Shown: positions 7,497 to 64,000 of the stretch, in pieces
Layout of the letters: each line of letters starts with the position of its first letter
Position numbering within the stretch: the first letter of the stretch is position 1
DNA from: Bacteroidota bacterium
GTDB lineage: Bacteria > Bacteroidota > Rhodothermia > Rhodothermales > JAHQVL01
DNA: 64,000 bases
Direction: 5' to 3'
Assembly: GCA_039111535.1 (NCBI GenBank)
Contig: JBCCIM010000009.1
Coordinates: 1-64,000, forward strand
Notes under the pieces: model-generated
What the model was told of the DNA's origin: nothing
The model's database searches: none
Seen by the model: the letters and a program-made list of their open reading frames with translations, nothing else
Translations under genes and position numbers: made by a program

Positions 7497-7705
7497 ATAA
7501 TACTAAGGTAACACCCTGGCCTGTTTTGTTGAGGGCAGGGCAACCAATTATGAATGGGGAAGATGTATGATTTCGGCCTGGAAAATGGTAGTGCTGATCC
7601 GGGTATGATGGTTACGCCTGACCACAGCGGGAAGGGATGGGCAACCTATATCCACACGCGTCTTTGTACCTGTGGAAGCTGGGCAATGTAGTAGGTTTGC
7701 GCATG

Positions 7706-12127: not shown

Positions 12128-12200
12128 AAGAATGTTGATTGACTTTGGCGAGGCGGGTTTGCCTGCGCAGGCATCCAGTATTGAATCTGGTAAATCATTT

Positions 12201-12221
12201 ATAGGTTGATGATCAACCTAT
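12201..12221. promoter_or_regulatory. dyad 1 upstream of padR-like gene
   Basis: Perfect inverted repeat with 10-bp arms, ATAGGTTGAT-G-ATCAACCTAT. Its core TTGATNATCAA is shared with a second dyad 32 bp away (centre to centre, about three helical turns). It is a likely PadR operator controlling the padR-permease pair. The rest of the 319-bp gap 12128-12446 holds no gene. Confidence 0.6.
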
Positions 12222-12233
12222 GTGCATGAGCAA

Positions 12234-12252
12234 TATATTGATCATCAATATA
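12234..12252. promoter_or_regulatory. dyad 2 upstream of padR-like gene
   Basis: Perfect inverted repeat with 9-bp arms, TATATTGAT-C-ATCAATATA, sharing TTGATNATCAA with dyad 1. The AT-rich flanks and the equal helical face suggest cooperative binding of two regulator dimers. Confidence 0.6.
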
Positions 12253-12446
12253 ACATGTCAACATATGCTGCAAAATTTGCGATAAGCGGGAGAATAGGAT
12301 ACCCTTTAAGCAATGGCCTGCGACAATGATGTGCAGCGCCGCGCATTTTTCGCGCGCGATTGTTATGCGTTGAGATGTAGCGCTGTCCTGGAGCGTTCTT
12401 GGGCGTTTGAAAGGGAATTGGTTCAGCGGCTGGGCATTGCAGGTGT

Positions 12447-13190
12447 TCAGCTTGTATGATGCAGCGCTCGAACTACGGCAGCAACCACATGCTGATCAGT
12501 ACCTGGCTTTGCTGGTGCCCGGAGCACGTCCAGTCCTTCGGGTTCAGGCAGCAACTTGCCAGCTGGATTGCTAAAACTGCCGTGCACCTGCGTGCAACCT
12601 GATTGAACCACCAGCTTGGTTACGCTGTCTGGCGTGATGCCGGCGCCCGGCAGGATTTCGATACGGCCGTTCGCCTGAGCAATCAGCTTTTGCAGTATTT
12701 TGGCGCCAGCAAGCGCGGTAGGGGCCTGCCCTGAAGTGAGGACCCGCTGTACGCCACAATCGATGAGCGTTTCCAGCGCCTGGTACGGATCGGGTGTCAC
12801 ATCAAACGCGCGGTGAAAGACACACGGGATGTTCTGCATGTGTGCGATGGCTTGCTGCAGACGCGGCACGTCTATTTCACCTGCCTCTGTCAAAATCCCG
12901 ATGGCAAAAGCGTCTGCGCCGGCGTCGACAAATGCATCTATATCGGCCAACATGGTAGCAAACTCAGGGACGCTGTAGACAAATCCATACGCGCGCGGCC
13001 GAATCATCACAACAATTGGTAGTTCGGAAGCGGCACGGACCTGGGCAAACAGTCCGGTTGAAGGGGTAAGGCCATCGAGGGCCAGGGCATAGTTGAGTTC
13101 GAGCCGGTCTGCACCGCCGGCTGTTGCTTCAACCGCAGCTGCTACTGATTCAACACAGACTTCGACGATCATCCGTTGGGAGCCAGCCAT
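12447..13190 (-). CDS. cutC: CutC-family protein (copper homeostasis-type)
   Basis: The 247-residue protein is a CutC-type TIM barrel. Family marks are MIVEVCVESVAAAVEATAGGADRLELN at the start (residues 7-33), then MIRPRAYGFVYS, FHRAFDVTPDP, RVLTSGQAPTA, ILPGAGI and QVHGSF near the end. CutC was first linked to copper tolerance, although its enzymatic activity is unsettled. Two starts are possible, at 13190 and at the Met six codons later (13172), which directly opens the first strand. Its upstream neighbour on the same strand, the ThuA-like gene, ends 48 bp away, so they may be cotranscribed. Confidence 0.9.
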   Translation of the reverse strand: MAGSQRMIVEVCVESVAAAVEATAGGADRLELNYALALDGLTPSTGLFAQVRAASELPIVVMIRPRAYGFVYSVPEFATMLADIDAFVDAGADAFAIGILTEAGEIDVPRLQQAIAHMQNIPCVFHRAFDVTPDPYQALETLIDCGVQRVLTSGQAPTALAGAKILQKLIAQANGRIEILPGAGITPDSVTKLVVQSGCTQVHGSFSNPAGKLLPEPEGLDVLRAPAKPGTDQHVVAAVVRALHHTS

Positions 13191-47361: not shown

Positions 47362-50300
47362 TTACCCGGCAAATCCAAGTTCGTCGATCTTCAGGAAGTG
47401 GACCCCGCCGCCGGCATCCCCGGCAATTACGCGGAGGCCATCTATCGTAAAGATGCAGCGTGTTAGCGGATGATCTGCATAGAAACTGCTGACGCGTTTG
47501 CCTTCTTCGATATCCCACAAAAACAGGGCATGGTCGTCGCCAGCGGAGGCGATGTACCGGCCATCCCGCGAAACGGCAATTTGGCGGATGTCTTTCTGGT
47601 GGCCATGCAACTCAAACACGCATTCATCCAGCGACAGGTCCCAGATGCGAATTATCTGGTCTTCGCCGGCTGAAATGAGGTGGTATCCCATTGGCGTGAG
47701 CGATAGATGACGAACAGGTCCTACATGCCCTTTCAAGCAGCCGCTTTCAAATCCAACACTAAAATTCCATACCCGAATGGTGCCATCATCTGACGAGGAA
47801 ATAATACGCTGGTCGAGTGATGAGATAACGAGGGCACGTACAGGCCCGGTGTGCCCTTTAAGTACATGTAGCAACCGGCCTTCCTGGATGCTCCACACGC
47901 GAACGGTATGATCGAGCGACGCAGAGATCACCAGGCGGTTGTCATTTGAGATGACTACGGAAGTAACCCCTCCGGTGTGGCCATGTAATTTCTTTACGAG
48001 CCGGCCTTGTTCGATATCCCAAATACCAATGGTTTTGTCTTCTGAGCCGGTGACAAGAAATCGGTCATTCCAGGCAAGCGCTGCGCACCATACCCAGTCA
48101 TCGTGACCATTCAGGATGTGCATACACGACTCGCTTTGCAAGTCCCATACATTGATGGAGCAGTCAAACGATGTAGATACAGCAAACCGACCCCTTGAAG
48201 AAATAGCCAGATCCCAAACCCAGTCTGTGTGCCCCCGAAACGTGGCGTCAACTGTAGCAGAGTCTATCCGCCACTTCATGAGCGAGGTATCATCAGAGCC
48301 AGAGAGCAATTGTGTATTGTCGGGTGAAATGGCGAGCGCACGCACCCCTTTGTTGTGCGCCTCTTTCTGGATTTGATAGGTATGACCGGTGAGGCTCCAC
48401 AGTTTGAGTGACGAGTCGTCTGAGGCGGAAAGCACGCCTTTACCGTCTGGCGTGACACCCATGTCCCACACCCAGTCGTCGTGTCCGGTGAACGTTCGCA
48501 GGATTTTGCCTTTTTCAAAGTCCCATACAATCATGGACTGGTCTTCAGAGGCACTGACGAGGATGCGCCCATCGTGAGAAAGATCTATAGCCCGTACGCC
48601 GGCCTGGTGCCCGGTAAGCACCTTTGCCACTTGCCCGCTAAACAAGTCCCAAACGATTACGGTCTGGTCTTCGGATGCACTGACAAGGTGCCGACCGTCG
48701 GGTGTGATTTTAATGGACCAGATCCAGTCGTCATGGGCCGTGAGCTTGATTTTACTCGTGCGGTTCTTCTTCAGGTCGATGCAGCCGATGGCGTGGTCAT
48801 CGCCGGCGGTAAACACCATCCGGTTGTCTGGCGACAGGGCCATCGACCAGATACGGTTTATTGGCGCGTCAAATGTCTGCTTGATTTCTCCAGTCCAGAG
48901 ATCCCACAGAATCAGCCGGCCGGACTCATCCGAAGACAAAACGTTGTCGTGTGGCAGCGGCACAATCGCCAGGATTTTGTCTTCGTGCAGCGCGTATGTG
49001 TGAAGGTTGGTGCCTTGCTCGATGTCCCATACTTTCAGGGTAAGGTCATCGGAGCCGGATACGGCATATTTGCCGTTGGGTGTGAAAGAAACGGTGTGTA
49101 CGAGGTCGCGATGCCCTTTGAAGGTGCGCAATTGGGCACCCGTGCGCAGGTCCCACAGCTTGAGCGTCTGATCACTGGAGGCGGAAATTGCTTTCCGGCC
49201 ATCTGGCTCGATATCGATGGCATGGATGACATCGTCGTGCCCACGATAGGTCTGCAGGAGCGAACTGCCCGGGATATCCAGGTTCACTTTGATCGGGTCG
49301 AGCCAGACGGGCTCGGGTTTTCCGGTGATTCTCACGGCATCAACCAGGTCGCGAATGGCCGGGATCTCCAGTTCCTGGAGCCGGCCTATCATCTGGTTGC
49401 CTAGTTGCGATGCGTCGGATGACAGAATAGGAGCAGAGAGCCGCAATGCTTCCTGTATCACGCGAAGGGTCTTGTCTTCACGGACGTAGTTAAAATCCTC
49501 AAAAAGGGCATCGGCGTCTGTGAAGTTGAGCTTGGCTTGCAACCATTCAAACGATAGCAGTAAAGCTGGTAATTCATCACCTCGTGCAGAGGCAGACAGG
49601 TGATAACAAAGGAAGCGATACAGGTAGCCGTCATCTGGTAATTCGGGCCACGGCAAATCGTTGCGGTTATAAGCCGCCAGCAAGGCTTCGTGCCAGGTCT
49701 CTATTTCTTCTTCGCGGTGCTCTTCTATGTAATCAGCAAGTTGGTTGTTTAGCGTAACAGTACTCCCATTGCTTCTGCGCCGGATGATATCAAGCTCTAC
49801 CAGTTCTTCGATCAGCTCAAGATGATTTACTTTACCGTGGGCGTCTTCCAGTTTGTGCCACAAGAGGTGAATTGCAGAAATGGGCAGGGGCGTCCGGGTT
49901 GGTAAAATGCCGAGCGCTCCGCAGAACTCTTGCTTGGCTGCCGGCATTTTATCTAGATGTAGCCCAATCAGGTGTTGCTGCAGGGTTTCCTGCGTGTGGC
50001 CATCCAACGAGGCCAGGAGGGCATCGATATTGTGCCCGCCTTGAATCAGAAGTGCTGCCAGTACAATGTTGTGTGGGATGTAGCGCAGGCGTTCTGCCAG
50101 CACGGCATTGGTCGATACGCTCAGCGTTTTGAACGCATTGATCAGCGCATTGGCATCGTCAATCTGCAAGGGTGGTGCATTGGCAGCCCGTGCGCCTAGT
50201 GCTTCTGCAACACGGGTGTTTCGCGTTGTAATGAGGAGGCGTGTTTTTGGGCTGCTTGCCTTGATTTGAAACGCCTGCCGTACAGACTGTACATCATCCA

Positions 50301-50736
50301 GCACGAGCAGCATGGCACAGTCATCAAGCAACGTTTTCAAAGCCAGCAGTGCTTCATCGCTGGACGTTGCTTCGGTCCAGTTGCTACGTTGCGCGCGCCC
50401 CAGTTTGTTGATCTGATCTGTCAGATCATAGGGTTTTGTGCCGAAATTGAGCCAGGCAATACCATCTGGGAAAGCTTGCTGGACTTCTTCGAGTTGGCAT
50501 AGCGCTGCTGCAATGGTGCTTTTGCCGGAGCCGGCTGGGCCTTGTAGTACCGTTGACGTACTTTTTCCTTGCTGGCCGGCTTTCTGAATCGTTTTTGCTA
50601 ACCTTGATACAACAGCGGGGCGATCGATATAATAGTGCGGGAGCGCGGGAGGGAGGAGTAGATTGTCGCTGTTGATGGATAGACCAGGGTTAGGAATAGA
50701 CACCGGCTTTTTTGTGGATATATTTCCCCTCTTCAT
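47362..50736 (-). CDS. Apaf-1-like NB-ARC ATPase with 15 WD40 repeats
   Basis: The 1124-residue protein is a STAND-type switch. It has a short leader of about 40 residues and an NB-ARC domain with Walker A GPAGSGKST (66-74), Walker B LLVLDDV (143-149) and sensor RLLITTRNT (about 168-176). A helical/winged region follows to about residue 490, then 15 consecutive WD40 repeats to the C-terminus (GH...LWD pattern, for example GHDDWVWD, DQTVIVWDLF). Fifteen repeats would build a 7- plus an 8-bladed propeller, as in Apaf-1. No death-fold, protease, nuclease or TIR effector domain is attached, so any output must use a partner. Proteins of this type can act in phage defence or signalling; the role here is unproven. 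Confidence 0.85.
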   Translation of the reverse strand: MKRGNISTKKPVSIPNPGLSINSDNLLLPPALPHYYIDRPAVVSRLAKTIQKAGQQGKSTSTVLQGPAGSGKSTIAAALCQLEEVQQAFPDGIAWLNFGTKPYDLTDQINKLGRAQRSNWTEATSSDEALLALKTLLDDCAMLLVLDDVQSVRQAFQIKASSPKTRLLITTRNTRVAEALGARAANAPPLQIDDANALINAFKTLSVSTNAVLAERLRYIPHNIVLAALLIQGGHNIDALLASLDGHTQETLQQHLIGLHLDKMPAAKQEFCGALGILPTRTPLPISAIHLLWHKLEDAHGKVNHLELIEELVELDIIRRRSNGSTVTLNNQLADYIEEHREEEIETWHEALLAAYNRNDLPWPELPDDGYLYRFLCYHLSASARGDELPALLLSFEWLQAKLNFTDADALFEDFNYVREDKTLRVIQEALRLSAPILSSDASQLGNQMIGRLQELEIPAIRDLVDAVRITGKPEPVWLDPIKVNLDIPGSSLLQTYRGHDDVIHAIDIEPDGRKAISASSDQTLKLWDLRTGAQLRTFKGHRDLVHTVSFTPNGKYAVSGSDDLTLKVWDIEQGTNLHTYALHEDKILAIVPLPHDNVLSSDESGRLILWDLWTGEIKQTFDAPINRIWSMALSPDNRMVFTAGDDHAIGCIDLKKNRTSKIKLTAHDDWIWSIKITPDGRHLVSASEDQTVIVWDLFSGQVAKVLTGHQAGVRAIDLSHDGRILVSASEDQSMIVWDFEKGKILRTFTGHDDWVWDMGVTPDGKGVLSASDDSSLKLWSLTGHTYQIQKEAHNKGVRALAISPDNTQLLSGSDDTSLMKWRIDSATVDATFRGHTDWVWDLAISSRGRFAVSTSFDCSINVWDLQSESCMHILNGHDDWVWCAALAWNDRFLVTGSEDKTIGIWDIEQGRLVKKLHGHTGGVTSVVISNDNRLVISASLDHTVRVWSIQEGRLLHVLKGHTGPVRALVISSLDQRIISSSDDGTIRVWNFSVGFESGCLKGHVGPVRHLSLTPMGYHLISAGEDQIIRIWDLSLDECVFELHGHQKDIRQIAVSRDGRYIASAGDDHALFLWDIEEGKRVSSFYADHPLTRCIFTIDGLRVIAGDAGGGVHFLKIDELGFAG

Positions 50737-52834: not shown

Positions 52835-52929
52835 GCGGATTGGCCCTTCGGATTAGCCCGAGGCCACCACGCTTTTTACGACCTACTCTGATTAACGGGT
52901 ATTGCGTTCCCCCTGTGTCGGTTTAATGA

Positions 52930-54612
52930 TCATAAACGTTTGTAATTGTTGCAATCATTGAACCCTGAAAGACAGGTGGATTTCAAATGCATACACCCTT
53001 TTTCCAAATTTTGCTGCTGTTTTGAGTTTTCTCGGATATCTGCCCCAATAGGCTTTTTAGTCCTCGATCCAAGGTGACAATTTGTGCGCGGAGCAGTCCC
53101 CCTCCGCGCAGAAGTTGTCATTCTTTTAGAGAAGAATGGGGATTCTTCGAGAGTAGGATCGAAGGCGAGGTCGATTATGACCTCGCCTTCGTGTATTTCT
53201 ATACGGTCTACTATACTCTCGATAATGCGGTGTTTTTCCTTGGTCGTGAACTGAGGCCATCCCTCTGCAATACTTCTTCCGCTTGAAAGCATTTCATCAC
53301 TGTTGTGATGCTGAATCTTTCTGAAGTCGATCTCTCCTTGAATGGATGGAATCTCTCTTTCTAACTGTTTGATTCGTTCTTCGAGTGGTCCATAGATCTT
53401 TCCAAATCCATCGGGACTAATCTTGTCATCAATGTACAAGCGGTACGTCTTATCCATCTCTGCCTGAACAGATTCTTTCTCTTTCTCCAATACGCTTAAG
53501 ATTTCTTCCTTTTCTCTAATTGCATCGTCTGCTTGTCTCAGTACTTCGTTTACATCAACAGGTGTACTCATGAAGTGTTTGAGCTGCGCGTGGAAGGCAC
53601 GCTCAAGATCGTCAACCGGTATCTTGTTTCTGCATGCATGGCAGACATACTTCGGCGTTTTGGAAGGCTTGTACATCTTGTCACCACAATGACAGTAGAT
53701 AAGACCGACAAAGAGGTGGGGTGACTTCCTCGCTTTGGGTTTGCGCTGTGCTCTCTGCTCGCTGAGGATGTGGTTGACCTGCTCCCAGAGATCGGTTTCT
53801 ACAATCGGCTCAACGTCAATCCAAATCCAGTCGTCTTCGTCTTTAACATCCCACGACATATCATCGCTGGATCGCTTGGTGTAGTTGCGCCGGCACTTAC
53901 CTTTGGCGATAGGATCCTCGAGTAATCGCTCGACGGTACGACGAGAAAACTTCGAGCCTTTTCGTGTTCGGTGGCCGGCTTCATTGATCATATTCGTAAC
54001 AATATGAATGCGCTTATGCTCAAGGAAAAGTTCGTAGAGTTTCTTCCTGACCGGCGCTTCGTAAGGTTCGATTTCAAGTTTGCCGTCTACCCATTTGTAT
54101 CCAAACTGCGCGACGCCACCAAGCGGTTTGCCGAGCTTCGCCCGAACAGGAACGGAAGCAGCCACGCGTTCCGCCGTCTCTTCGCGTTCCCACTGCGCCA
54201 TAGCAGCAAGCATCGTGTAGAAAAGTCTGCCGGCAGGAGATGACGTGTCGATGGCTTCTTGAAGGGAGATGAGGTCTGCATCAAACTCTCTGAAGATATC
54301 AGCAAACTCAAGCAACTCACGGGTATTACGAGCAAGCCGAGCCAGCTTCGAGAAAATGAGTCCACTGATACGACCCATCCGAATGTCTTCAAGCATCTGC
54401 TTGGTCTCGGGCCGGTCTTTAACTGACTTGCCAGAAATGGCGTCGAGCCGGTAGACTTCGGCAACTTCCCAGCCTTTCATTTCGGCGTAGGTATTTGCCC
54501 GGTATTCGTGGTGTTCCGGGCTTTCGCCTTTAACCTGATCTTCGGTAGAGACGCGAATCCAGATACCGACTTTTTTCTTAGGTCTGGGCGTGTCGTGTTC
54601 ATTCGTAGGCAT
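52930..54612 (-). CDS. large serine recombinase (site-specific integrase)
   Basis: The 560-residue protein has a resolvase catalytic domain (GIWIRVSTEDQ with the nucleophilic Ser about residue 19; RLDAISGKSVKDRPE; LARLARNTRELL), the recombinase DNA-binding domain, a zinc ribbon (YCHCGDKM..YVCHAC) and a coiled coil (about 365-450). Such enzymes integrate and excise mobile elements. A GGAGG ribosome site lies 7 nt before the ATG. The last 60 or so residues, after SPFFSKRM, look like translated non-coding DNA, and a 46-bp imperfect palindrome lies where that tail begins. The gene marks the left edge of the element and follows the ATPase gene by 10 bp. Confidence 0.88.
   Translation of the reverse strand: MPTNEHDTPRPKKKVGIWIRVSTEDQVKGESPEHHEYRANTYAEMKGWEVAEVYRLDAISGKSVKDRPETKQMLEDIRMGRISGLIFSKLARLARNTRELLEFADIFREFDADLISLQEAIDTSSPAGRLFYTMLAAMAQWEREETAERVAASVPVRAKLGKPLGGVAQFGYKWVDGKLEIEPYEAPVRKKLYELFLEHKRIHIVTNMINEAGHRTRKGSKFSRRTVERLLEDPIAKGKCRRNYTKRSSDDMSWDVKDEDDWIWIDVEPIVETDLWEQVNHILSEQRAQRKPKARKSPHLFVGLIYCHCGDKMYKPSKTPKYVCHACRNKIPVDDLERAFHAQLKHFMSTPVDVNEVLRQADDAIREKEEILSVLEKEKESVQAEMDKTYRLYIDDKISPDGFGKIYGPLEERIKQLEREIPSIQGEIDFRKIQHHNSDEMLSSGRSIAEGWPQFTTKEKHRIIESIVDRIEIHEGEVIIDLAFDPTLEESPFFSKRMTTSARRGTAPRTNCHLGSRTKKPIGADIRENSKQQQNLEKGCMHLKSTCLSGFNDCNNYKRL
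53075..53120. other. 46-bp imperfect palindrome, candidate attachment junction
   Basis: Arms TGACAA / TTGTCA (outer) and TGCGCGGAG / CTCCGCGCA (inner), with a 4x4 mismatch between them and an asymmetric centre CAGTCCCC. Length, imperfect symmetry and position beside the recombinase gene resemble attachment sites of large serine integrases. If the crossover is at the centre (about 53097), the DNA to its left would be host DNA. A terminator is the main alternative. Confidence 0.4.
53160..53191. repeat. perfect 13-bp inverted repeat inside the recombinase gene
   Basis: CGAAGGCGAGGTC-N6-GACCTCGCCTTCG, coding for the EGEVIIDLAFD part of the recombinase. Perfect 13-bp symmetry within codons is rare; it may be a fortuitous product of the EGEV/DLAF codons or a recombinase or RNA-structure site. 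Confidence 0.5.
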
Positions 54613-54622
54613 GAGAGTCCTC

Positions 54623-57600
54623 CTATGTATCTTTCATCCTTCGCATAGCGCTTAGGATAACGTCAGAGATAGCTTTCTTTCGGGTGGCTGCATCCTCTTT
54701 ACTGCCGGGCTTCACGCGTACCTTCACGGTATACCCACCCACAACTTCTTCGGTCCGTGAATTCGGTATCTCTCCAAGGAATGCAAACAAATCTTCAGGA
54801 GAGAGGAATTTGACCTTGGGGAGCTTCTTTTTATCGAGTTTGGCTTTGATATGCTTTTCGGCTTTTCGGAGTGTTTTGTCATCAGCAGAGACAAGCGCAA
54901 CGGTATCGTAGCCGGCATTAAGGCATTTCTGCACGTTGCCGAGTTCGTAATCAGGCGTTGAGGTGACGGATATTTCGCAAGCAATTGTCGTTTCATCCGT
55001 TTCAAGAGCAACATCAATACTCTCCCGACTATCGGGGATCGGCTTTTCGATGGTAGCCCGAAATCCGTTATGCTCACCCCATCGTTTAATGAGTTCTTGA
55101 AGGTAGCGGTGTTGCTGGCCGCCTTTGCCCAACTGGGCTTTTTGCTTTGGGGTTTTCTTTGGTGCAGGTGGCGGAGCAGCTTTTGGTTTTGGTGGCGGTG
55201 TAATGATTGGTCTTTTTGGATCGTCTTCAACGATATTAACTGGCTCCACAGATTCCGGAGGCTCAGTTTCTCTTACCGTCCTTTTATTAGGTTGCGGAGT
55301 AGCCGGTTCATTCTCTTCAATCGGTGCTCGTGCTTGTTGTAACAGTTCTTCGACCTCTTCAAGGGGCGTCCCGTAATTCTGCCGTGATCGTTCAATAACA
55401 GATTGAATGTGATTTTCAGAATCCTCCACTATTTCAGGAAGCGGGTATGTCTCCAGGTTGAAGTCATAATCCGTCCGCTCAACCCGAATGACTGCTTCAC
55501 CTCTGCCCAGGTTTTGAAGATCCTTTCCTTCAAAGAACGCAAACCCTGTTTCGAGCGAACGAGCATCCATGTCGCCGACTCTGAAGCAAATGCGGGTATA
55601 GGGATTTGTGAGAACTGCTGATTGCAATTCGGTATCACGCGATTGCAATTGCCTCATGTCCTGGTGAGCCAGCGTCAACCCCAGGCGATACTTTCTCGCC
55701 CCTGAGAGAATCGTAGAGAGCGTTGGTGTGATGAAGTGATGGAATTCATCAATGTAGAGGTAAAACGGCTTCCTAGAGGCTTCCTGGAGCTCCTGACGTG
55801 AAAGGGCAAGCTGGTAGAACTTTGAGACCAGCAGCGAACCAAGCAAATAACTATTCTCTTCACCAATGGCCCCTTGAGCAAGTTTGGCAAGCAAGATTTT
55901 CCCACTATTCATGATGTGGCCGAAGTCCAGCTTATTCTCTTTCTGAGCAACGATATGCCGTATGAGTTTAGGCCGAAGGAACGTGTCTAGCCTTGTCAGG
56001 AGTGGTGCCTGTGGACGACCAGATAACAGAGGATACTCTTTCTGCCAGTAGTAAAGTACTTCGTGGTCGGTGACAGTTTTGAGGAATTCTTTTCTGAATT
56101 CTTTCTCGACAAGGAAGCGTCGCATATCTGCAAGTGTGCCGCCTTTTTCTGATTCGAGAAATGCAAGAATGCTATTTCCAAGGACTGATGTCATCTGATC
56201 GCCCCAGCTCGTTGAGAGGCGTTTAAAGACGGCTACGAGATCAGAGGAGAGAAGCTGCTTTTCGAGCGTGGAATGGGCCTGAAGAATGTTGAAGCCAATT
56301 GGGAATTGCTCGTCGGCTGGATCGAAGAGGATGACATCATCGAGTCTGGATTCCGGCACATACGGCAAGAGCCTGTCGATGAGGTCGCCATGAGGATCGA
56401 GGACGGCAAAGCCGTTGCTTGTTTTGAGATCCTGGATAAGAAGGCTGAGAAGGAGATGCGATTTGCCGGTGCCGGATGCCCCGATGATGTGTGTATGCTT
56501 TGTTCTTTGCTCGCCATTCAAACTTGCCTTAACGGTACGGCCGTCGTGGTAATTGTCTCCAAGAATGAGATCGTTGCCTACAGCGATTCGAGGTACAGCC
56601 TTGGTTTTCTTGGTTTGCCGAACAAGTTTGCTCGATTTCACAGAGATGGAAGGCAGATGTACCAAATTTACCAGTTCATTAGCTCCCAGAAGCATACCAC
56701 TTCGATGACTGGTTCTATTGAACAAGTCTTTTTCCTGTTTGGTGGTAGTATACCCGGTGTTTTCAAGTGGGATAAACGAATTTCCCGTTGGTGCGCCAAA
56801 TTGACGAAATGAATCAGTCAACGACCCGGCAATGTGCCATAGCCCTGCTTCGGTACGTGCTCGAGAAGCTATTCTAATTACCGACGAGAAGAATGGCTGC
56901 CTCATTTTCTTCTGTATGCTTTTGGCAACTTCAGATATTTCCAGCTGCCTGCTTGATTGGGTATTTATATGAATCAATCTAGCGGCATGTCGCTTCCAAG
57001 GATGTCGAGCAGGTTGAAAAAGAACTTGAACTATTGCTACCTCGCCGGCCTCTAAGTTTTCAAGCGCGTTCAGAAACGGTATTAATGGGTCAACCTCAAA
57101 AGTAGCCGGAACACGAATTGGTTTTGCATAAGCCTCTGACAAGCCAATTTCGAAGATGACTTGGTTGTCTGAGTTGGATCCCTGCCAAACGTCGACTAGG
57201 TGGTTTTGATTTTGGAAAACGATCACCCTTGGGAAGTAACCCTTTATGTGCTGAGTTAAGAGTCCAGCATCTTCACGCGTAGCAAACTGAACCTCAATAG
57301 ATTCAGCAGTGGCAATAATCTCAAAGCTAGTAGCGCCGGCAGTAGATGGAATAGCAAGTAAAAATTCCAGAGCAACTTCTTTTTTAATGCGGCAGTCTGT
57401 TGGGATGACGCATTTCAATTCGATGGGTGCTTTTTGGGGAGAGTACCGCCGAGGCTTGACGTATTGAGGTGGGAGTACCTGGTTGGACGAATTGGCTTTG
57501 GCTCGCAGTAATGGTTGTACTAACCGCCGTCCTATTCTGACCGGCAACCAGTCTTTCTTGCCGTCGTCAACGACAGTTCTTTCTACACTTCTGCCCTTGT

Positions 57601-57739
57601 TGGCATAGTTAAAGGGAGGTTCTATTTCAATAGGATCATCCCAAAGGGTCCATCCGCGTCCCAGTATCTCATGAAAAGAGTAGAGACCGCTTTCATTTTT
57701 TTGTAAAGGGGCAGGATCTGAAGCAGCTCGTTTAGCCAT
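54623..57739 (-). CDS. HerA/TraD-like DNA-transfer ATPase with C-terminal nuclease-like domain
   Basis: The 1038-residue protein has an N-terminal region of about 380 residues, then a P-loop motor of the conjugative coupling protein type: Walker A IIGASGTGKSHLLL (about 420), FAVLDPHGDLIDRLL, Walker B PFYLYIDEFHHF (about 660) and LGLTLAHQDMRQL. A Pro-rich linker (about 810-870) leads to a 150-residue alpha/beta domain with ESIDVALE..IACEISVT, resembling a restriction-endonuclease-like core in which the last catalytic residue may be altered. The start at 57739 is set by GGAGGG 7 nt upstream and overlaps the preceding stop by 8 bp; a longer frame begins 5 codons earlier. It is inferred to translocate element DNA. 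Confidence 0.8.
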   Translation of the reverse strand: MAKRAASDPAPLQKNESGLYSFHEILGRGWTLWDDPIEIEPPFNYANKGRSVERTVVDDGKKDWLPVRIGRRLVQPLLRAKANSSNQVLPPQYVKPRRYSPQKAPIELKCVIPTDCRIKKEVALEFLLAIPSTAGATSFEIIATAESIEVQFATREDAGLLTQHIKGYFPRVIVFQNQNHLVDVWQGSNSDNQVIFEIGLSEAYAKPIRVPATFEVDPLIPFLNALENLEAGEVAIVQVLFQPARHPWKRHAARLIHINTQSSRQLEISEVAKSIQKKMRQPFFSSVIRIASRARTEAGLWHIAGSLTDSFRQFGAPTGNSFIPLENTGYTTTKQEKDLFNRTSHRSGMLLGANELVNLVHLPSISVKSSKLVRQTKKTKAVPRIAVGNDLILGDNYHDGRTVKASLNGEQRTKHTHIIGASGTGKSHLLLSLLIQDLKTSNGFAVLDPHGDLIDRLLPYVPESRLDDVILFDPADEQFPIGFNILQAHSTLEKQLLSSDLVAVFKRLSTSWGDQMTSVLGNSILAFLESEKGGTLADMRRFLVEKEFRKEFLKTVTDHEVLYYWQKEYPLLSGRPQAPLLTRLDTFLRPKLIRHIVAQKENKLDFGHIMNSGKILLAKLAQGAIGEENSYLLGSLLVSKFYQLALSRQELQEASRKPFYLYIDEFHHFITPTLSTILSGARKYRLGLTLAHQDMRQLQSRDTELQSAVLTNPYTRICFRVGDMDARSLETGFAFFEGKDLQNLGRGEAVIRVERTDYDFNLETYPLPEIVEDSENHIQSVIERSRQNYGTPLEEVEELLQQARAPIEENEPATPQPNKRTVRETEPPESVEPVNIVEDDPKRPIITPPPKPKAAPPPAPKKTPKQKAQLGKGGQQHRYLQELIKRWGEHNGFRATIEKPIPDSRESIDVALETDETTIACEISVTSTPDYELGNVQKCLNAGYDTVALVSADDKTLRKAEKHIKAKLDKKKLPKVKFLSPEDLFAFLGEIPNSRTEEVVGGYTVKVRVKPGSKEDAATRKKAISDVILSAMRRMKDT

Positions 57740-58562
57740 CGTGTAGCCCTCCATAGTGTTCGGACAGCTCTAGCAGAATGGGCTTTTGAGCCTCGTCGAG
57801 TGAGAGGAAGGCGTCTGCACTGGTCAACTCCTTATGAACCTCACTTATGACAGTTTCGATAACTTTTTTGAATGCCCTAGCAGTGTCTATCCGATAGTAT
57901 GTTGCCGGTTTAATAAACTTGCCTATGAGCCACACGAAAGGCTTTCCTATAAATCGCCTCCGGGTGATAAAGCCCAAAATTCCTGGGAACGACAGCCCTA
58001 ACCACCAGGAAACCAACGTGTCTCTACCATAAGGAATACAACTGATGTCAAGTACATGTCTGCCGCGACGTAGACGGAGATATTTCCGCTTGGGACTGAA
58101 GAGTCCGCCCTGCTTGGTGTAAAAAGTTGTAATCTTTACATTTGCAAGCCTTCTTGAGGTTACGGCATCGCTTATGAGCGTGTAATATTCTCCAGGGGAG
58201 ATCTGAATGTTCGCAAGAACCGTGTTCCAAGAATCAAGTGCGTGCGTTACTTTTCTAGGCGTTTTGAGCACTCTGGAATCCAGTGATGTTAGTGAAAGTG
58301 CTTTTTCATACGCTCTGTCGTCGCGATTCTTAGTGGTCGATTTAGTTCGAGTATTCGGGATCGTCAGGGCAAACAAAGAAACTATCACAAGACCAACCGT
58401 GCGGATACAAAAGAGTGCGATTTTACTGGGAACGGTAACAGGATGCGGGAATCGTTTGGAAGATAGAAGGGGGTAGACAACAATGTAAAAACCGTAAAGT
58501 ACGAGCGCGAGATTTAGTACTTCCATAGCAAGCGCCTGCATAGAGAGAATAAATTCATTCAT
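57732..58562 (-). CDS. element membrane protein with two N-terminal helices
   Basis: This 276-residue protein has two membrane helices (about 15-35 and 50-68) followed by a soluble domain with a central basic patch (KRKYLRLRRGRHVLD) and a short hydrophobic stretch near 190-205 that may dip into the membrane. I do not recognise the family. The ribosome site AGAGGA lies 6 nt before the ATG. The end of the gene overlaps the ATPase gene by 8 bp, so the two are translationally coupled and the protein is probably the inner-membrane anchor or dock of the DNA pump. Confidence 0.65.
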   Translation of the reverse strand: MNEFILSMQALAMEVLNLALVLYGFYIVVYPLLSSKRFPHPVTVPSKIALFCIRTVGLVIVSLFALTIPNTRTKSTTKNRDDRAYEKALSLTSLDSRVLKTPRKVTHALDSWNTVLANIQISPGEYYTLISDAVTSRRLANVKITTFYTKQGGLFSPKRKYLRLRRGRHVLDISCIPYGRDTLVSWWLGLSFPGILGFITRRRFIGKPFVWLIGKFIKPATYYRIDTARAFKKVIETVISEVHKELTSADAFLSLDEAQKPILLELSEHYGGLHDG

Positions 58563-58580
58563 GGAAATCCTCTATATGGA

Positions 58581-58618
58581 AAAGGGAGCACCAGACTCGA
58601 TTGCCTGATGCTCCCTTT
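58581..58618 (-). terminator. intra-operon hairpin, attenuator or partial terminator
   Basis: 10-bp stem AAAGGGAGCA / TGCTCCCTTT, extended by CAG/CTG inside one mismatch. On the minus strand it is followed by TTTTCC, a short U-tract. It sits between the stop of one element gene (58633) and the start of the next (58562), so it would lower transcription into the ATPase-recombinase part. Confidence 0.6.
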
Positions 58619-58632
58619 CATTGTTCTTGGTT

Positions 58633-59694
58633 TTATAATGACTGAGTAGCCTCATTCATATGACCATCTCCCGAAGGAGGGTCAAATATGACAGGTTCGG
58701 GCACACCGGCTACTCCAGGATCATCTGCTTCATCCGAGCCGCCATGTTGGTCGTCTATATACTTCCTCGTACGATGACTAAACGTCTCGTCCGGTGGATT
58801 GAAGGGGCTATATCTTCGCTCGTACTCCCTTTTCTTTGCTCTGTAATGTGAGAAGGCAGTATATAGGTCTTGCAAAAGGTCTCTCAAGCCATTCTTAAGC
58901 CCCGCTCTTGTTTTCTTGAGTGACTTGTGGATCGGCATATAGCCTACTCTGTACATGAAGCCGGCATACAGATGCCAATCAAAAAGTGCTACGAGAGCAT
59001 TCCCCAAGAACACAAGGAACGTGTACAAGAAAATCACCGGATTGTGTAACGCTGCTTCAATAATTCCAGGAATTTCCTGCAGTACTGGCACTGTTCCATT
59101 CATTATTGCATCTGTGTGAGCGAGTTCATTTTCGTATTTGACTAGCTCGATGTCGGCCATTACCAAGACCATAAAAGCCCAGCCGGCTAGAATGAGAACA
59201 ACCAGCCATTTCGATCTTGTGAGTACCGGGTATCTTCTTAGATTTTTGAACGAAAGACGTTGGTCCTCATCCGGTAAAGGAGGTAGCGGCCACTCATTCT
59301 TGGTGAGAGTAATTCTCAGTCTTATCACATACATGAGTAATCCAATGTGGATAAAGCTCAGCAGTAGCGGCAGCTCCGAAGCGATCAAGAGGCTACCTGT
59401 AGACTGTATGCCAACAATGAGGATTTCTGCCAGCGGCAAAGCCAGTGCAAGTGCCCATGCAAAGAAAAACATTGGACGCTCGCCTAATGCGTTACCGGTT
59501 AGCCATCTGAATTTTTCTTCGTGTGCAGCCGACTCTTTAATGGATTCTTCGAGCCGGTCTTCAATGTCAGCAATCTGGTTTCCGGTCGTATTGACGACGT
59601 TTTGAAGCCGATCGAGATCATCAACAGCATCAGCTATTTCCTTGTCGCGGATATTCCGATACTTAGGCTGAGTTATATCTGTAGGTATATACAT
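58633..59694 (-). CDS. element membrane protein with coiled coil, four to five helices
   Basis: The 353-residue protein begins with a coiled coil (about residues 18-60, DDLDRLQNVVNTTGNQIADIEDRLEES). Membrane helices follow at about 75-95, 100-125, 165-185 and 218-240, and the C-terminus is basic and then acidic (KKREYERRY..DEADDPGVAG). I do not know the family. Its start codon shares one base with the upstream stop (TAATG), so it is coupled to the secreted-protein gene. Long coiled coils before membrane helices suggest an assembly or scaffold role in an envelope complex. Confidence 0.65.
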   Translation of the reverse strand: MYIPTDITQPKYRNIRDKEIADAVDDLDRLQNVVNTTGNQIADIEDRLEESIKESAAHEEKFRWLTGNALGERPMFFFAWALALALPLAEILIVGIQSTGSLLIASELPLLLSFIHIGLLMYVIRLRITLTKNEWPLPPLPDEDQRLSFKNLRRYPVLTRSKWLVVLILAGWAFMVLVMADIELVKYENELAHTDAIMNGTVPVLQEIPGIIEAALHNPVIFLYTFLVFLGNALVALFDWHLYAGFMYRVGYMPIHKSLKKTRAGLKNGLRDLLQDLYTAFSHYRAKKREYERRYSPFNPPDETFSHRTRKYIDDQHGGSDEADDPGVAGVPEPVIFDPPSGDGHMNEATQSL

Positions 59695-60482
59695 TAGCGC
59701 ACCTCCTCAGATGTTGAAATGGAAACAATCGTCCGAATTGCAGAAGCAATACCTTCGAAGGCTTTTACCCTAAATCCTGCCTGGGCGAGCGATCCTTTGT
59801 GAAGCCGGCCGTTCACCACGTATATGTTCTTGGCATAGGGTAACGCACCCGGTGCTGGCATTGCGTAATCTCGATCCGGGTTTTGCTGCCGGAACATTGA
59901 ACTCAGAGCTTGCTCGACATCGGAAATGAACAGGATAAACGGTATGTAATCGGCACCTGTTAAATCAGCATCCATCTCCGCCAGAAATCTATGACATCGT
60001 ACGAGTGCGCCTATTACGTCACTGCTAGTTGCGTCAACGCCGCGTGATAGGTCGTCGGCGATTTCATTGAGGAAAAGGTCACGGTCAAGCTGGAAACGCT
60101 GGTGTCTTTTTTCCCGTTTAGTCTTCCAGGCGATCAAGTCACGGTTGTACTTCTTTCTGGCTTCGACCTTGGCTCTGTTGCTGAAAGCGTGCTCCTCTAC
60201 CGGTAGTGGCGGTACCGGTGAGACATAAAATCGCTTCAGCGGCCAGTTGCTAGAGTCGTCGAGCATTCCAAAGGCTATCTCTCCACCAACCTTCAACTGA
60301 GCGTCAAAGAGTGGGTAGAAGTCGCCCTCTTTGATTTGGGGTGTACCAAAGTTGGCACTGCTCCCTGATTTATCCTGAATGACACATACTTTGAAGTATG
60401 TGCCGTCAGAATTCTGCCCCAATGCAGAGGGGCAAATGGCGAGAAATGCGACAATAATTATCGCAGGTGTGTTTTTAAACAT
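59694..60482 (-). CDS. secreted protein with vWA-like MIDAS start
   Basis: The 262-residue protein has a signal peptide (MFKNTPAIIIVAFLAICPSALG). It then opens with FKVCVIQDKSGSSANF, in which DKSGS resembles the DxSxS metal site of von Willebrand A domains; ADYIPFILFISDVEQALSSM could hold a later strand of that fold. Between them lies a charged helical part (KVEARKKYNRDLIAWKTKREKRHQRF). I call it vWA-like with caution. It is the first gene of the envelope-ATPase-recombinase transcription unit; the hairpins upstream (60510-60535) may mark its leader. An in-frame ATG 4 codons earlier (60494) is an alternative start. Confidence 0.6.
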   Translation of the reverse strand: MFKNTPAIIIVAFLAICPSALGQNSDGTYFKVCVIQDKSGSSANFGTPQIKEGDFYPLFDAQLKVGGEIAFGMLDDSSNWPLKRFYVSPVPPLPVEEHAFSNRAKVEARKKYNRDLIAWKTKREKRHQRFQLDRDLFLNEIADDLSRGVDATSSDVIGALVRCHRFLAEMDADLTGADYIPFILFISDVEQALSSMFRQQNPDRDYAMPAPGALPYAKNIYVVNGRLHKGSLAQAGFRVKAFEGIASAIRTIVSISTSEEVR

Positions 60483-60566
60483 GTAAATCACCATGTTTTT
60501 TTAATTGAACACACCCGGAGAGGTGAACCGGCAACGCCGGCTAGAAACCAAATGCTCCAAATAACA

Positions 60567-60595
60567 TTGACATTCAGCTTGAAATAGACTAGCAT
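60567..60595 (+). promoter_or_regulatory. sigma70-type promoter driving a candidate small RNA
   Basis: TTGACA, a 17-bp spacer, and TAGCAT (4 of 6 matches to TATAAT). Transcription would start near 60602, ahead of three stem-loops and a U-tract. A perfect -35 hexamer is unusual for a Bacteroidota-type genome, which mostly uses a different -33/-7 pattern. Confidence 0.5.
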
Positions 60596-60601
60596 GTAAG
60601 T

Positions 60602-60708
60602 CTAATTCGAATTCACCCTCCGGGGTGTCTTATCGGTGAGGCTTCAAACCACGTGTTTGATGTTCTCAAACGGGTCCTAGGTCTATCACACCTTTGGCCC
60701 GTTTTTTT
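60602..60708 (+). ncRNA. candidate small RNA, about 107 nt, three stem-loops
   Basis: Downstream of the promoter lie stem-loop 1 (CACCC-UCCG-GGGUG, 60614-60627), stem-loop 2 (UCAAAC-N5-GUUUGA, 60644-60660) and a terminator hairpin (AAACGGG..CCCGUUU plus AGGU..ACCU, 60668-60704) with a U-run to 60708. No reading frame fits. UCUCAAACGGG is repeated just downstream at 60720-60730. An RNA regulating copy, transfer or recombinase expression of the element is possible. No family match is known to me. Confidence 0.5.
60668..60708 (+). terminator. rho-independent terminator of the plus-strand RNA
   Basis: Stem AAACGGG/CCCGTTT (7 bp) and AGGT/ACCT (4 bp) with a 4x4 internal loop and a 7-nt apex, followed by TTTT after the stem's own three Ts, seven T in a row. 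Confidence 0.65.
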
Positions 60709-60804
60709 GATAGGTGAGATTCTCAAACGGGTTCAAAGCTTCGTATTGCCGTCTTTCGGCAATTTCTATTGATGCACATTGCAGCGATGACGGCGATTGA
60801 CGAA

Positions 60805-60946
60805 CAAAAAAACGTATAAACGACAAAAGCCGACCACCAAAGCTCTATGCTTTGACAATCGGCAGTTCAGTAAAGTGCAACCTTAACGAGCAGTTCATTT
60901 AACAGGATGGCCCCAGCGGGATCAACGAATCTACTCAGGTTGCACT
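60805..60946 (-). ncRNA. candidate structured RNA on the minus strand
   Basis: Read on the minus strand, AGTGCAACC (60946-60938) pairs with GGTTGCACT (60882-60874), closing a 73-nt module. Eleven nucleotides later comes a hairpin GCCGA..AAAGC-N5-GCTTT..TCGGC (60863-60829), then TTTTGTCG and a run of seven or more T at about 60812-60805. A closed multi-branch module followed by a terminator-like hairpin is what a small RNA gene looks like. The module has tRNA-like length but no tRNA signature. No promoter is clear. Confidence 0.4.
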
Positions 60947-61249
60947 GTTCTTTGCATGTTGGATACTGTGGGCAGCACTAGGAATGTGCCCGATGCAATT
61001 TTGCTTTTATAGCCAAAGCATAGATGTAACATGGAAGTTCATCAGCTGTAACAGCCGAGTACACTACCATGAGCGTCTTGCAAAAGTTAGCGCTGAAAAG
61101 AACATCCCCAACACTCATCTAGCTTTAGCTCGGTTTTAAAGGTAATGGTTGACCGAAAACCTTAATTTGCTTCTCACACAAAAGCAATTCATAATATATC
61201 GGGCTATTGGCCCGATCAAACAATCATACTTGCATAAAAGCAAGCGTAA

Positions 61250-61280
61250 AAACCACAACCTCTGCATAGGTTTGTGGTTT
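61250..61280. repeat. strong hairpin in the element's gene-free kilobase
   Basis: AAACCACAA / TTGTGGTTT 9-bp arms with an inner CCT/AGG pair. A second hairpin, ATCGGGC-N5-GCCCGAT, lies at 61198-61216, and a third (GGGCA..TGCCC) at 60970-60991. Apart from these and the two candidate RNAs, the stretch 60483-61493 holds no gene I can support. Confidence 0.45.
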
Positions 61281-61383
61281 GCATAATTAAGGCAATGCTT
61301 AAAAAAGCTAACTACCTCTAATATAGATATACACATCTGGCTTGTGTAATGCAAGCGAGTAATAAAAAAACCTTAAAAAAGAA

Positions 61384-61407
61384 GGGCAACCCTTTGGCGG
61401 GTTGCCC
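61384..61407 (-). terminator. rho-independent terminator of the XRE-RuvC unit
   Basis: Perfect 9-bp stem GGGCAACCC / GGGTTGCCC with a 6-nt loop, followed on the minus strand by TTCTTTTTTAAGG and TTTTTTT. It lies 87 bp after the stop at 61494 and separates the regulatory/RuvC unit from the gene-free kilobase. Confidence 0.85.
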
Positions 61408-61493
61408 ATTCTGAGCGCAGGAGAATTGCAGGATCAGCACTTTGTTACTGGAGGAGTACATTACAGCCTGAGTAGCGTGAGATGAACGTTGAA

Positions 61494-62006
61494 TCATGGG
61501 GCTGAGAATTCTAACAATTGCCGGCTCGTGTAGTAATAGGTCAGCGCTTGTGCAGCAGCATCGAAAATGCTGGATCTCTCATCTTCGCTTTTCCATATTC
61601 TTCTCTTAGGTGGTAACTTGGATGAAAGCTCCGGATAGGATTCGGCAAGTCTTTTTGCAATCTCATGTTTGGTGATTTGCCCATCAGAAGAAAAAGAGCG
61701 CGCAATCTCATGGGTAGAGTAGCATTCCACCTCAGCTTTAGATTCCATGATAAAATCTACCAGATCTGATATGAGATTTTTCACACGCTTACTTCTTCTT
61801 GACTTGGGACTTTGCCAATCCTCAAGAACAACTACGGCTGGGTTATACCAGGCTAGCAGTTGAGCAATTGATTCCAAGCATTCTGTACGTCCAGCCGGCC
61901 TAATTTGTGTGTGGCCCCAATCAACGAGTTTTGCTGGGCCTTCGAAAACAACAAATCCATATCCATGGCTTGTCGGGTCGATGGCGACGACACGAGAGTC
62001 TGTCAT
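61494..62006 (-). CDS. stand-alone RuvC-fold nuclease-like protein
   Basis: This 170-residue protein has the RNase H/RuvC arrangement of acidic residues: Asp in RVVAIDPTSHGYGFVVFEG (first strand), Glu in AVVVLEDWQ (fourth strand) and Asp in SSIFDAAAQALTYY (last helix). RuvC-type enzymes cut Holliday junctions or other branched DNA as dimers; some elements use them for replication or resolution. The start at 62006 places the first strand at the N-terminus as in RuvC; a longer frame from 62057 overlaps the XRE gene. It forms a unit with the XRE-type gene, ending at the terminator at 61384. Confidence 0.72.
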   Translation of the reverse strand: MTDSRVVAIDPTSHGYGFVVFEGPAKLVDWGHTQIRPAGRTECLESIAQLLAWYNPAVVVLEDWQSPKSRRSKRVKNLISDLVDFIMESKAEVECYSTHEIARSFSSDGQITKHEIAKRLAESYPELSSKLPPKRRIWKSEDERSSIFDAAAQALTYYYTSRQLLEFSAP

Positions 62007-62037
62007 AGTACTTAGAAGCTCTATGTGTGGACACGGC

Positions 62038-62376
62038 CTAATTAGAAAGCTCATCAAGAAGCTCTTTCAAACTCCGAAGCTTATGAAGTGTGGTTGGTGT
62101 AGTTTCTTTTTTCGTTATCTGTTTGTGCAGTATTGCAACGCGTTCTTTTACCTGATATTCTATCTCGTGATATACCCCTTCAAACAGGTGTTTGCTCATG
62201 GTCTTATAGACCACTTCCAGGGCGAGCACCGTTTTTAGGTTGGGAATTCTTTGCTGACGTTCATAGCGTGATATTTTAGTACCATGTTCACATCCTAGAA
62301 GGAAGGCTACTTCTGCTTGGGATAGGCCGCTCCGTTTGCGGAATGTCCGCAAATAATTCGGGAGCTTATTAGACAT
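62038..62376 (-). CDS. XRE-family helix-turn-helix regulator
   Basis: The 112-residue protein has an N-terminal HTH: LPNYLRTFRKRSGLSQAEVAFLLGCEHGTKISRYERQQRIPNLKTVLAL, with the recognition helix around TKISRYER. A helical tail of about 60 residues follows (HEIEYQVKERVAILHKQI). It is typical of element or phage regulators that control excision or transfer genes. I took the Met at 62376 because the earlier in-frame Met would add 17 non-conserved residues. Its target is probably within the element; no convincing dyad was found in the 208-bp gap 62377-62584. Confidence 0.85.
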   Translation of the reverse strand: MSNKLPNYLRTFRKRSGLSQAEVAFLLGCEHGTKISRYERQQRIPNLKTVLALEVVYKTMSKHLFEGVYHEIEYQVKERVAILHKQITKKETTPTTLHKLRSLKELLDELSN

Positions 62377-62584
62377 ATTTGGTGGATAATATTGGTAATC
62401 GACCTTTTTTGAGATCCAGGTTTCCAATGTTCTACCTTTTTAATAAGACGTTCCAACACAAACTTCATTACGTCAATATCCACACATGCCGAACTTAAGG
62501 CGACTTGTCAATCTGGTTTCTCAATGTGTATACGATAGAGGATTAGGTCTGTGAAGCGAAGAAGGTGAATTCTGCCGGATTGGT

Positions 62585-63910
62585 TTAATCCTGAGTCGAG
62601 TATTTTTTAAACAGCCAGGACAGCTTAGGGTATTCTTCTGGCGGGACGATGAATACCCCATTGCTTTTCCGAGTTGTTAACTGTAAGGATTCCCGAATAA
62701 TCCGGCCAATTCCTCGTGCAGTTAAGGGCTTGTCGTATCCTTCCGTATAACGGTCATTAAACCAACTTGTAATGTCCCTCACTGAGAGCACAACATCCTG
62801 CTCTTTCAGATCAGCGATAACCTGAAGTATCTGAGCTTCGATCTGCATTCCTCGATAACCCTCCATATTGCTCTGATACTCGGTGGCAAGCTCAATCAAC
62901 TCTTGACGGGTTTTTTCATCCTGAATGATAGAGAACAATGGTCTAAGAACTTGGATTAGCCGAGGCTCTAGATCGAGATGTGATAGGTCTGGGAATTCCT
63001 GTTTTCGGTAAGATCTGAGTCTGAACATGAGTAGCTGGTTCCTAAGCCTCAGAGCCTCATTTTCATACTCTTCAGTCAGGTTAAGTGGGATGTCTCGCCT
63101 TAGATCGCCCGTACCCATCTCCTCAGTAATGCATCTGGTTTCAAGCGCCGGGTCTTCAAAGGCTTTTCGTGTGGCGACGATTTTAGGCCCGTATACGTAG
63201 AAAGCATGAGGACTGTATTCACCCCAGGGAGTTACTTCACTTCTGAGTACAGGAAATCCACGAGCATTACCGTTGTTGAGAATTTTTACGATTTCAGCTC
63301 TTTCATCACTTAATCTGAAATCTCCTTCATCGAGGATAAGCGTTCCCTGGATTTTATCAAGCATTCGAAAGAGTGGAGATACTGTTGAAGCTCCACTAGC
63401 AAACAACGGCTTGTAGCAAATTGAACCAACGATCAGGAGAAATCGCGTTTTACCGCTTCCAGGGTTTCCTTTAAGCCTCAGATACGGAAGCTCGTTAAAA
63501 CAGTCATATATCCACGTAAGGAGAACGTAATAGCTTGCAAGCTTTTCGAATCGCGGGGATACGTGGACGTACTTGTGAATGAACGCTTGAATACGGGTCA
63601 CCAGTTCTTCTTGCGTTCCATATTCTATTGGTTCTTCTGCCAACAAGAGCACTTTATGTTGCAGCAGGTTATTCTTAGCCGAATAAGGTTCGATAATGCT
63701 CTCTCCATCTGGAAGAGATTCCATAAAATGCCACACCCCGTTCTGCGATATACAAAACTGTGTTTTCTGAGCGCGTTTCTGAAAGACAGTTTCTACGAGG
63801 ATTTCACCGGCAATTACTGACGAGACAATCCTCTTTTTCTTGGATTTTAGGGATTTTAGGGACTTTGGGGACTTGTTTGAGGATGTATTACGATTCATGC
63901 ACAGAAGCAT
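62585..63910 (-). CDS. P-loop ATPase with C-terminal winged helix, replication-type
   Basis: The 441-residue protein has a basic, low-complexity N-terminus (KSPKSLKSLKSKKK), encoded by tandem 9-bp repeats. A nucleotide-binding domain follows with Walker A GNPGSGKTR (148-156) and Walker B LILDEGDF (191-198), and a C-terminal winged helix (VRDITSWFNDRY..GIGRIIRESLQL..GVFIVPPE). The layout resembles helicases of the D5/VapE/primase-associated kind found on plasmids and satellites, but I see no primase motif. It is likely the replication or mobilisation initiator of the element. A start 4 codons later (63898) is possible; the last 90 bp of the window show nothing further. Confidence 0.68.
   Translation of the reverse strand: MLLCMNRNTSSNKSPKSLKSLKSKKKRIVSSVIAGEILVETVFQKRAQKTQFCISQNGVWHFMESLPDGESIIEPYSAKNNLLQHKVLLLAEEPIEYGTQEELVTRIQAFIHKYVHVSPRFEKLASYYVLLTWIYDCFNELPYLRLKGNPGSGKTRFLLIVGSICYKPLFASGASTVSPLFRMLDKIQGTLILDEGDFRLSDERAEIVKILNNGNARGFPVLRSEVTPWGEYSPHAFYVYGPKIVATRKAFEDPALETRCITEEMGTGDLRRDIPLNLTEEYENEALRLRNQLLMFRLRSYRKQEFPDLSHLDLEPRLIQVLRPLFSIIQDEKTRQELIELATEYQSNMEGYRGMQIEAQILQVIADLKEQDVVLSVRDITSWFNDRYTEGYDKPLTARGIGRIIRESLQLTTRKSNGVFIVPPEEYPKLSWLFKKYSTQD
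63842..63868. repeat. three 9-bp tandem repeats
   Basis: GGATTTTAG, GGATTTTAG, GGACTTTGG in a row, encoding the KSLKSLKSK segment of the ATPase on the minus strand. A small slippage-prone coding microsatellite. Confidence 0.7.
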
Positions 63911-64000
63911 ACGCTTATGGTTGCCAGATCAAAGACGGTGTTTTTTGTTTACCTCGACTAACTTCACCGTCTACTTTAATAGGTTGAGGTTGGATACTGT

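Follow-up and report, generated by a model that had tools for sequence, protein, structure and literature searches.

Outside the Actinomycetota and some archaea, conjugation is generally held to depend on a relaxase together with a mating pore. The actinobacterial integrative and conjugative elements (AICEs), pSAM2 among them, move their own DNA with one FtsK-like protein (PMC3218068), and some of the Sulfolobus conjugative plasmids without a relaxase do transfer (PMC4390865). The element described here comes from a Bacteroidota bacterium and lies at the end of a 64,000-nucleotide stretch, hereafter the window, which is the start of contig JBCCIM010000009.1 (C9) of assembly GCA_039111535.1 (6.6 Mb in 355 contigs, 97.6% complete). 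We label this genome G000, with C for its contigs; other genomes and the loci found are labeled G and L. The element encodes two conjugation-type ATPases, which we call long and short, a protein just upstream of the long one, which we call the partner, and serine recombinases A and B. It represents a widespread and apparently undescribed family that inserts by means of a serine recombinase, in the usual case within comM, a gene of DNA uptake; no description of it was found in open-licence papers, and its novelty is provisional. We read the element as integrated in the chromosome and probably able to move itself, with its own DNA driven by the pumps, an interpretation that we place slightly on the likely side.

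Among 297 genomes of the phylum, 4 besides G000 proved to encode a full-length homologue of the long ATPase (40-45% identity over ~1000 amino acids), with the partner directly upstream in all 4. When 84,980 species genomes were scanned with a profile, more full-length homologues came to light in Bacteroidota, Verrucomicrobiota, Acidobacteriota, Planctomycetota, Gemmatimonadota, Eiseniibacteriota, and one Patescibacteria bin. In total, 54 independent loci spread over six or more phyla encode the long ATPase, and the partner is directly upstream at 49 of them, which bears out the expectation, raised in a preliminary description of the window, that the genes travel together. Recombinase A was found at 24 of these loci, the short ATPase at 18, a regulator that we call the end-XRE at 13, another XRE-family regulator at 11, and a RuvC-fold protein at 9; all of these counts are lower bounds, because the flanks end at 10 kb or at contig ends. 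The co-occurrence is far above chance. As a control, the partner is present in none of 32 Patescibacteria loci with relatives of the long ATPase that lack its C-terminal tail; such tail-less relatives, without the partner, are numerous in that phylum (L088-L120). Two Planctomycetota loci, L049 and L061, combine both ATPases, the XRE regulator, and the RuvC-fold protein with homologues (E 1e-116 to 1e-128) of a P-loop protein of the window element. Several carriers are metagenome-assembled genomes, in which binning errors can misplace contigs.

On plasmids and in phages, the ATPase matches were only partial and <60% identical, and no related element was found except on one Sulfitobacter plasmid. 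That plasmid (NZ_CP081110.1, L011; Sulfitobacter mediterraneus, Alphaproteobacteria) has genes for an XRE regulator, a RuvC-like protein, recombinase B, and the short ATPase at 7656-13107 and no long ATPase, a module which suggests that the element may be built of two separable modules. A related but different arrangement is seen in G008 (L009:1988-4495), where a short VirD4-like ATPase with an N-terminal transmembrane segment is followed by what appears by eye to be a replication-relaxation-family-like protein.

Relatives define the ends and the target of the family. Many long-ATPase loci adjoin halves of comM (yifB), and a TIGR00368 search places the split at approximately profile position 344-355 in most carriers, some of the comM-adjacent loci in that survey having been chosen for that adjacency. 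Where element and chromosome meet, comM is interrupted at a TG core between the codons for MNP and those for CPCG, and the ends of the element carry short inverted arms, for example, GTTGCGTTGCC and GGCAACGCA. For each of the five complete elements (37.3-68.7 kb), which lie between comM halves with a recombinase at one end, the flanks once joined give back a comM frame of 506-509 amino acids. Within the phylum sample alone, comM is split in four of the five carriers (G000, G101, G176, and G217, with G093 intact), compared with none of 92 non-carriers having comM, and among 99 genomes from the phylum examined as a control, only G000 and G101, both of them carriers, had a split at the element site. 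The non-carrier G070 has an extra, isolated comM C-terminal half beside an intact comM. Recombinase A of the window element is 56% identical to the recombinase adjoining comM in G101. The cultured carriers are Niastella vici and Mucilaginibacter phenanthrenivorans.

Four of the complete elements (G176, G331, G334, and G337) each have nine core families, namely, recombinases A and B, the long and short ATPases, the partner, the XRE regulator, a small protein of ~79 amino acids, the RuvC-fold protein, and the end-XRE; because these elements and the window supplied the seeds of the family profiles, the result means that each family can be seeded from all of them. ArdC-like proteins are present in three of the four. 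The fifth element, in G217, has a tyrosine integrase beside the pump unit and is without the short ATPase and recombinase B. The remainder of the complete elements is varied cargo that includes defence genes: Pfam matches among 78 non-core open reading frames (ORFs) of the four include prokaryotic STING, a Pycsar effector, Shedu, a reverse transcriptase, an N6-methylase, aminoacyl-tRNA synthetases, a peptide exporter, and nucleases.

No relaxase, mating-pore, phage structural, capsid, portal, tail, or terminase family was matched among these 78 ORFs, in a scan that listed its first set to E 3e-5 and left out short ORFs and those crossing the fetched pieces. Neither PF03135 (VirB4), TIGR03783 (TraG), nor any other mating-pair formation (MPF) gene lies within the elements, and PF03432 relaxase matches never fall within an element with defined ends. 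When contig C9 was followed past the window to its end at 69805, a check named in the preliminary description, recombinase B and the short ATPase came into view, with no relaxase, classical VirB4, or phage structural gene. These findings sustain the proposal that the element is mobile and has a conjugation-type pump while lacking a classical relaxase or pore, as far as the contig runs in the window copy and in a gene set that recurs in defined elements across phyla. The same results bear on the idea that the element is mobilizable, its ATPases standing in for the coupling protein of a helper's conjugation machinery, with the relaxase provided in trans. Integrative and mobilizable elements with their own VirD4 have been described (PMC5704250), and some carriers of our family have conjugative elements elsewhere. 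However, the known mobilizable elements that encode a coupling protein of their own encode a relaxase as well, and PF03432 is absent from 10 of 17 carrier genomes, G000 included (other relaxase families were not searched genome-wide), as are TIGR03783 from 13 and PF03135 from 15 of the 17. We regard a helper-dependent element as distinctly improbable.

The long ATPase ties the unit to proteins that move DNA. Its Pfam matches are TrwB_AAD_bind (2e-7), DUF87/HerA (7e-7), and TraG-D_C (5e-5). In the structural model (pLDDT 82.8), a folded N-terminal region precedes a RecA-like motor, and the chain ends in an alpha-beta-beta-beta-alpha-beta domain; the protein has no conserved transmembrane segment. 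The best matches among solved structures are VirB4/TrwK of R388 (854 alignment columns, E 1.5e-15, with a TM-score of only ~0.3), TrwB (TM-score 0.6 by target), and HerA. The closest sequence profiles are those of IcmO/DotL, TrwB, DptH, and HerA; PF01580 (FtsK/SpoIIIE) matches at E 0.17. The TraG-like protein of pNOB8 is homologous to the long ATPase (hhalign probability 99.6, query columns 191-755, 523 columns), and that of pAH1 is homologous over the motor. This likeness in fold and sequence to TrwB, VirB4, HerA, and the pNOB8 protein points to a pump of the DNA-moving kind. It also requires a qualification of the preliminary statement that VirB4 is missing, since no classical VirB4 gene was found but the long ATPase is VirB4-like in overall fold, although its VirB4 family score is weak (TIGR00929, 19 of 643 bits). 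The single pump envisaged there has become two. The short ATPase shares 40% identity with the core of its long counterpart; it matches PF01580 at 2.9e-5 over only 26 residues at the P-loop, and TrwB and HerA models score higher. Residues H882, Q886, E903, D914, and E927 of the long-ATPase tail are invariant among 41 homologues, and the position of the classical lysine is S or C; from the model and the alignment the tail is predicted to be PD-(D/E)XK-like, and nuclease activity is plausible.

A HerA-type ATPase with a nuclease is a known defence design, and the PADLOC defence models mad8 (E 9e-17) and HerA (9e-5) match the long-ATPase core, by profile similarity only. The unit could then be an anti-phage or anti-plasmid system on a cargo or defence island that carries a serine recombinase and spreads passively by transformation or transduction, in keeping with the other defence genes carried by the complete elements. 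We consider this unlikely, though a serious alternative, for the long-ATPase fold is nearer to TrwB and VirB4, and a second ATPase without the nuclease-like tail joins the unit in complete elements. Moreover, the unit often adjoins a recombinase, is found with serine and, at L030, L063, L083, and L121, tyrosine integrases, and sits beside replication-like genes, as would be expected of an element's backbone and not of exchangeable cargo; its constancy is no evidence in itself, because the loci were found by the unit. The long ATPase also matches PHROG 5156 (E 4e-69), with relatives in Bacillus phages, and a scan of viral contigs, which gave no locus with a single protein as query, gave 5 loci with an alignment, 3 of which have the partner-ATPase unit. 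These three (L121, L122, and L123) are IMG/VR contigs classed as viral, and they may be misclassified integrative elements. A degraded or satellite phage whose ATPase packages DNA into particles nevertheless seems very improbable, given the lack of capsid, portal, tail, and terminase genes in the surveyed ORFs of the four complete elements, the element lengths, which vary from 37 to 69 kb, and the fact that phages with relatives of the long ATPase have terminases of their own.

The preliminary description had three envelope proteins of the window forming a channel, an idea that the comparisons do not uphold. Among the membrane proteins of the compared elements only the partner is conserved, and there is no conserved set of transmembrane transfer proteins. 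The other two (a 353-amino-acid protein with four predicted transmembrane segments and a 266-amino-acid protein with one N-terminal hydrophobic, signal-like segment) are without a homologue among the 296 other genomes sampled from the phylum and at related loci, and each is probably cargo. The partner gene mostly overlaps the long-ATPase gene or lies ≤25 bases from it. Its product has two predicted transmembrane segments in the window element, and one or two in 42 of 52 family members (4 of the other 10 are cut at contig starts); the segment is N-terminal in some members and internal in others, and its retention despite the shifting position suggests that membrane docking matters. The 42 members scanned had no Pfam match, and a fold search with the partner returned nothing convincing, the best match having E 0.004.

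The P-loop protein, which has no Pfam family match, is presumed to act in replication, and in G093 an initiator-like protein lies between the XRE and RuvC-fold genes, whose adjacency recurs in relatives. The acidic residues of the RuvC fold are kept in the window copy and lost in Bacteroidota relatives, and a role as a general resolvase is doubtful, the catalytic acids being absent in the four complete Bacteroidota elements, which have only the catalytically degenerate kind. Elsewhere RuvC-fold genes are paired, and one of the two keeps its catalytic acids while the other does not (L028:16479-17505, L037:3713-4807, and L079:2674-4340). A 629-amino-acid protein beyond the window resembles by eye a transglycosylase joined to a CHAP-type wall hydrolase; as a VirB1-like hydrolase it did not qualify, with SLT at only E 0.012, below the cut-off, and it remains a lead that could be a VirB1-like helper or cargo. 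A search of the element for clt-like repeats and RNA families gave nothing convincing.

In the mechanism that we propose, recombinase A would excise the element as a circle and later reinsert it, and the replication-like proteins would copy the circle. The partner would dock the long-ATPase hexamer, itself without transmembrane segments, at the inner membrane. Processing of the DNA would fall to the nuclease-like tail or the RuvC-fold protein, and one or two pumps would drive the DNA, perhaps double-stranded, out of the cell with no relaxase involved, much as TraB works in AICEs; passage of the outer membrane would be a further step. Beyond the defence-model matches given above, several points weigh against a self-moving element. 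It is known from sequence, from which we infer both excision and transfer; the elements have no conserved outer-membrane component; and the window copy is not in comM, lacks its right end beyond 69805, and has an undefined left junction. The long-ATPase phylogeny otherwise follows phyla, so that most movement appears to be within phyla and long-distance transfer rare; the exception is the G000 protein, which groups in a non-Bacteroidota clade (support 98), implying inter-phylum movement. A more far-reaching formulation, that the family is a relaxase-independent class of autonomous conjugative element in diderm bacteria, with VirB4/VirD4-type pumps and a single new membrane anchor, possibly moving double-stranded DNA and settling in comM, so disabling a transformation gene, is offered tentatively and is at present the less likely outcome.

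The features of the window copy are listed below. All the genes in the preliminary list are present (serine recombinase, ATPase with a nuclease-like tail, secreted and membrane proteins, RuvC-fold, XRE, and P-loop), and within the window all of those reported, from recombinase A to the P-loop protein, are on the minus strand; the start given there, 53097, falls within recombinase A. The left part of the window holds ordinary chromosomal genes (RecJ-like and NusB/RsmB-like, read by eye), and the G+C content falls from ~0.50-0.55 to 0.43-0.49 over the element region, the drop beginning at ~52.9 kb. The candidate arm is positioned just beyond the recombinase A stop, as are the arms of comM-inserted relatives. 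A large STAND-type NTPase with WD40 repeats is encoded at 47362-50736, just left of the element, and L053 has a similar protein downstream of its ATPase. Contig C9 extends 5.8 kb past the window and ends in a truncated ORF. Placement of this copy in comM was rejected, the flank at the recombinase A end being unrelated chromosomal DNA. The comM gene of G000 is split at the same codons as in relatives on another contig, C285 (L126:832-2361), with a family end-XRE adjoining, and its C-terminal half is absent from the assembly; G000 has either two elements or one rearranged element.

Features of the window element (contig C9 coordinates) and lengths of complete relatives
Feature	Position or length	Strand	Basis or remark
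Possible left attachment-site arm TATTGCGTTCCCC (tentative; true junction not located)	52900..52912	none	Resembles relatives' arm GTTGCGTTGCC
Large serine recombinase A (integrase)	52930..54612	-	Pfam Resolvase 1e-31, Recombinase 5e-15; PHROG integrase 8e-111
Long VirD4/VirB4/HerA-type ATPase, C-terminal PD-(D/E)XK-like domain	54623..57754	-	Pfam, fold, homologues
Partner: membrane anchor and conserved alpha/beta domain, no known family	57732..58562	-	Upstream of long ATPase
353-aa (amino acid) four-transmembrane protein, private to window element	58633..59694	-	No homologue found
266-aa protein, signal-like N-terminus and VWA/MIDAS-like DKSGSS motif (by eye), private	59694..60494	-	
RuvC-fold protein	61494..62057	-	Homologous to Pfam RuvC-matching loci L049 (27 bits) and L079 (48.7 bits)
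XRE-family regulator, overlaps RuvC-fold gene	62038..62427	-	HTH_31 4e-10
P-loop ATPase, presumed replication protein	62585..63910	-	Homologues in L049 and L061
Recombinase B (second serine recombinase)	64195-65706	+	Beyond window
Short VirD4-like ATPase, 394 aa	65742-66926	-	Beyond window
629-aa protein	67467-69356 (L002:7468-9357)	+	Beyond window
Complete element in comM, G217	68667 bases		
Complete element in comM, G176	42442 bases		
Complete element in comM, G331	42118 bases		
Complete element in comM, G337	37303 bases		
Complete element in comM, G334	45897 bases		

The rule that conjugation needs a relaxase and a pore becomes testable in a family that has no relaxase but does have dedicated pumps, precisely defined ends, and members in cultured hosts. 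If our reading is true, it would explain the movement of defence- and cargo-bearing islands that are invisible to finders keyed on relaxases or MPF genes. The family also adds to a pattern of mobile elements breaking comM, whose disruption in Acinetobacter lowers transformation. The AbaR islands are likewise found in comM (PMC7508600) but are transposons. A survey of comM-inserted large-serine-recombinase islands describes recombinases and their sites; it is not known to describe the pump-bearing family.

The SCC elements (staphylococcal cassette chromosome; CcrA/B/C) are similar in being serine-recombinase islands with varied cargo and no conjugation genes, and recombinase A resembles CcrB and CcrC, below their cut-offs. 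SCC elements are not known to have an ATPase-partner unit, and they insert in rlmH. The Sulfolobus plasmids pNOB8, pAH1, and pTC1 have two ATPases (~1020 and 620 amino acids), the long one homologous to that of our element; several are without a relaxase, and pAH1 has a Holliday-junction-resolvase-like protein. They differ in being plasmids with a set of transmembrane transfer proteins and an archaeal envelope, and the alignment ends before the tail of our long ATPase. AICEs share with our element the combination of an integrase, of the serine or tyrosine type, with replication or replication-like genes and a hexameric DNA pump and no relaxase or type IV secretion system (PMC3218068). In our element, by contrast, the pumps are two and of the VirD4/VirB4/HerA type rather than FtsK/TraB, the membrane partner and nuclease-like tail are additional, and the hosts are outside the Actinomycetota and mostly diderm.

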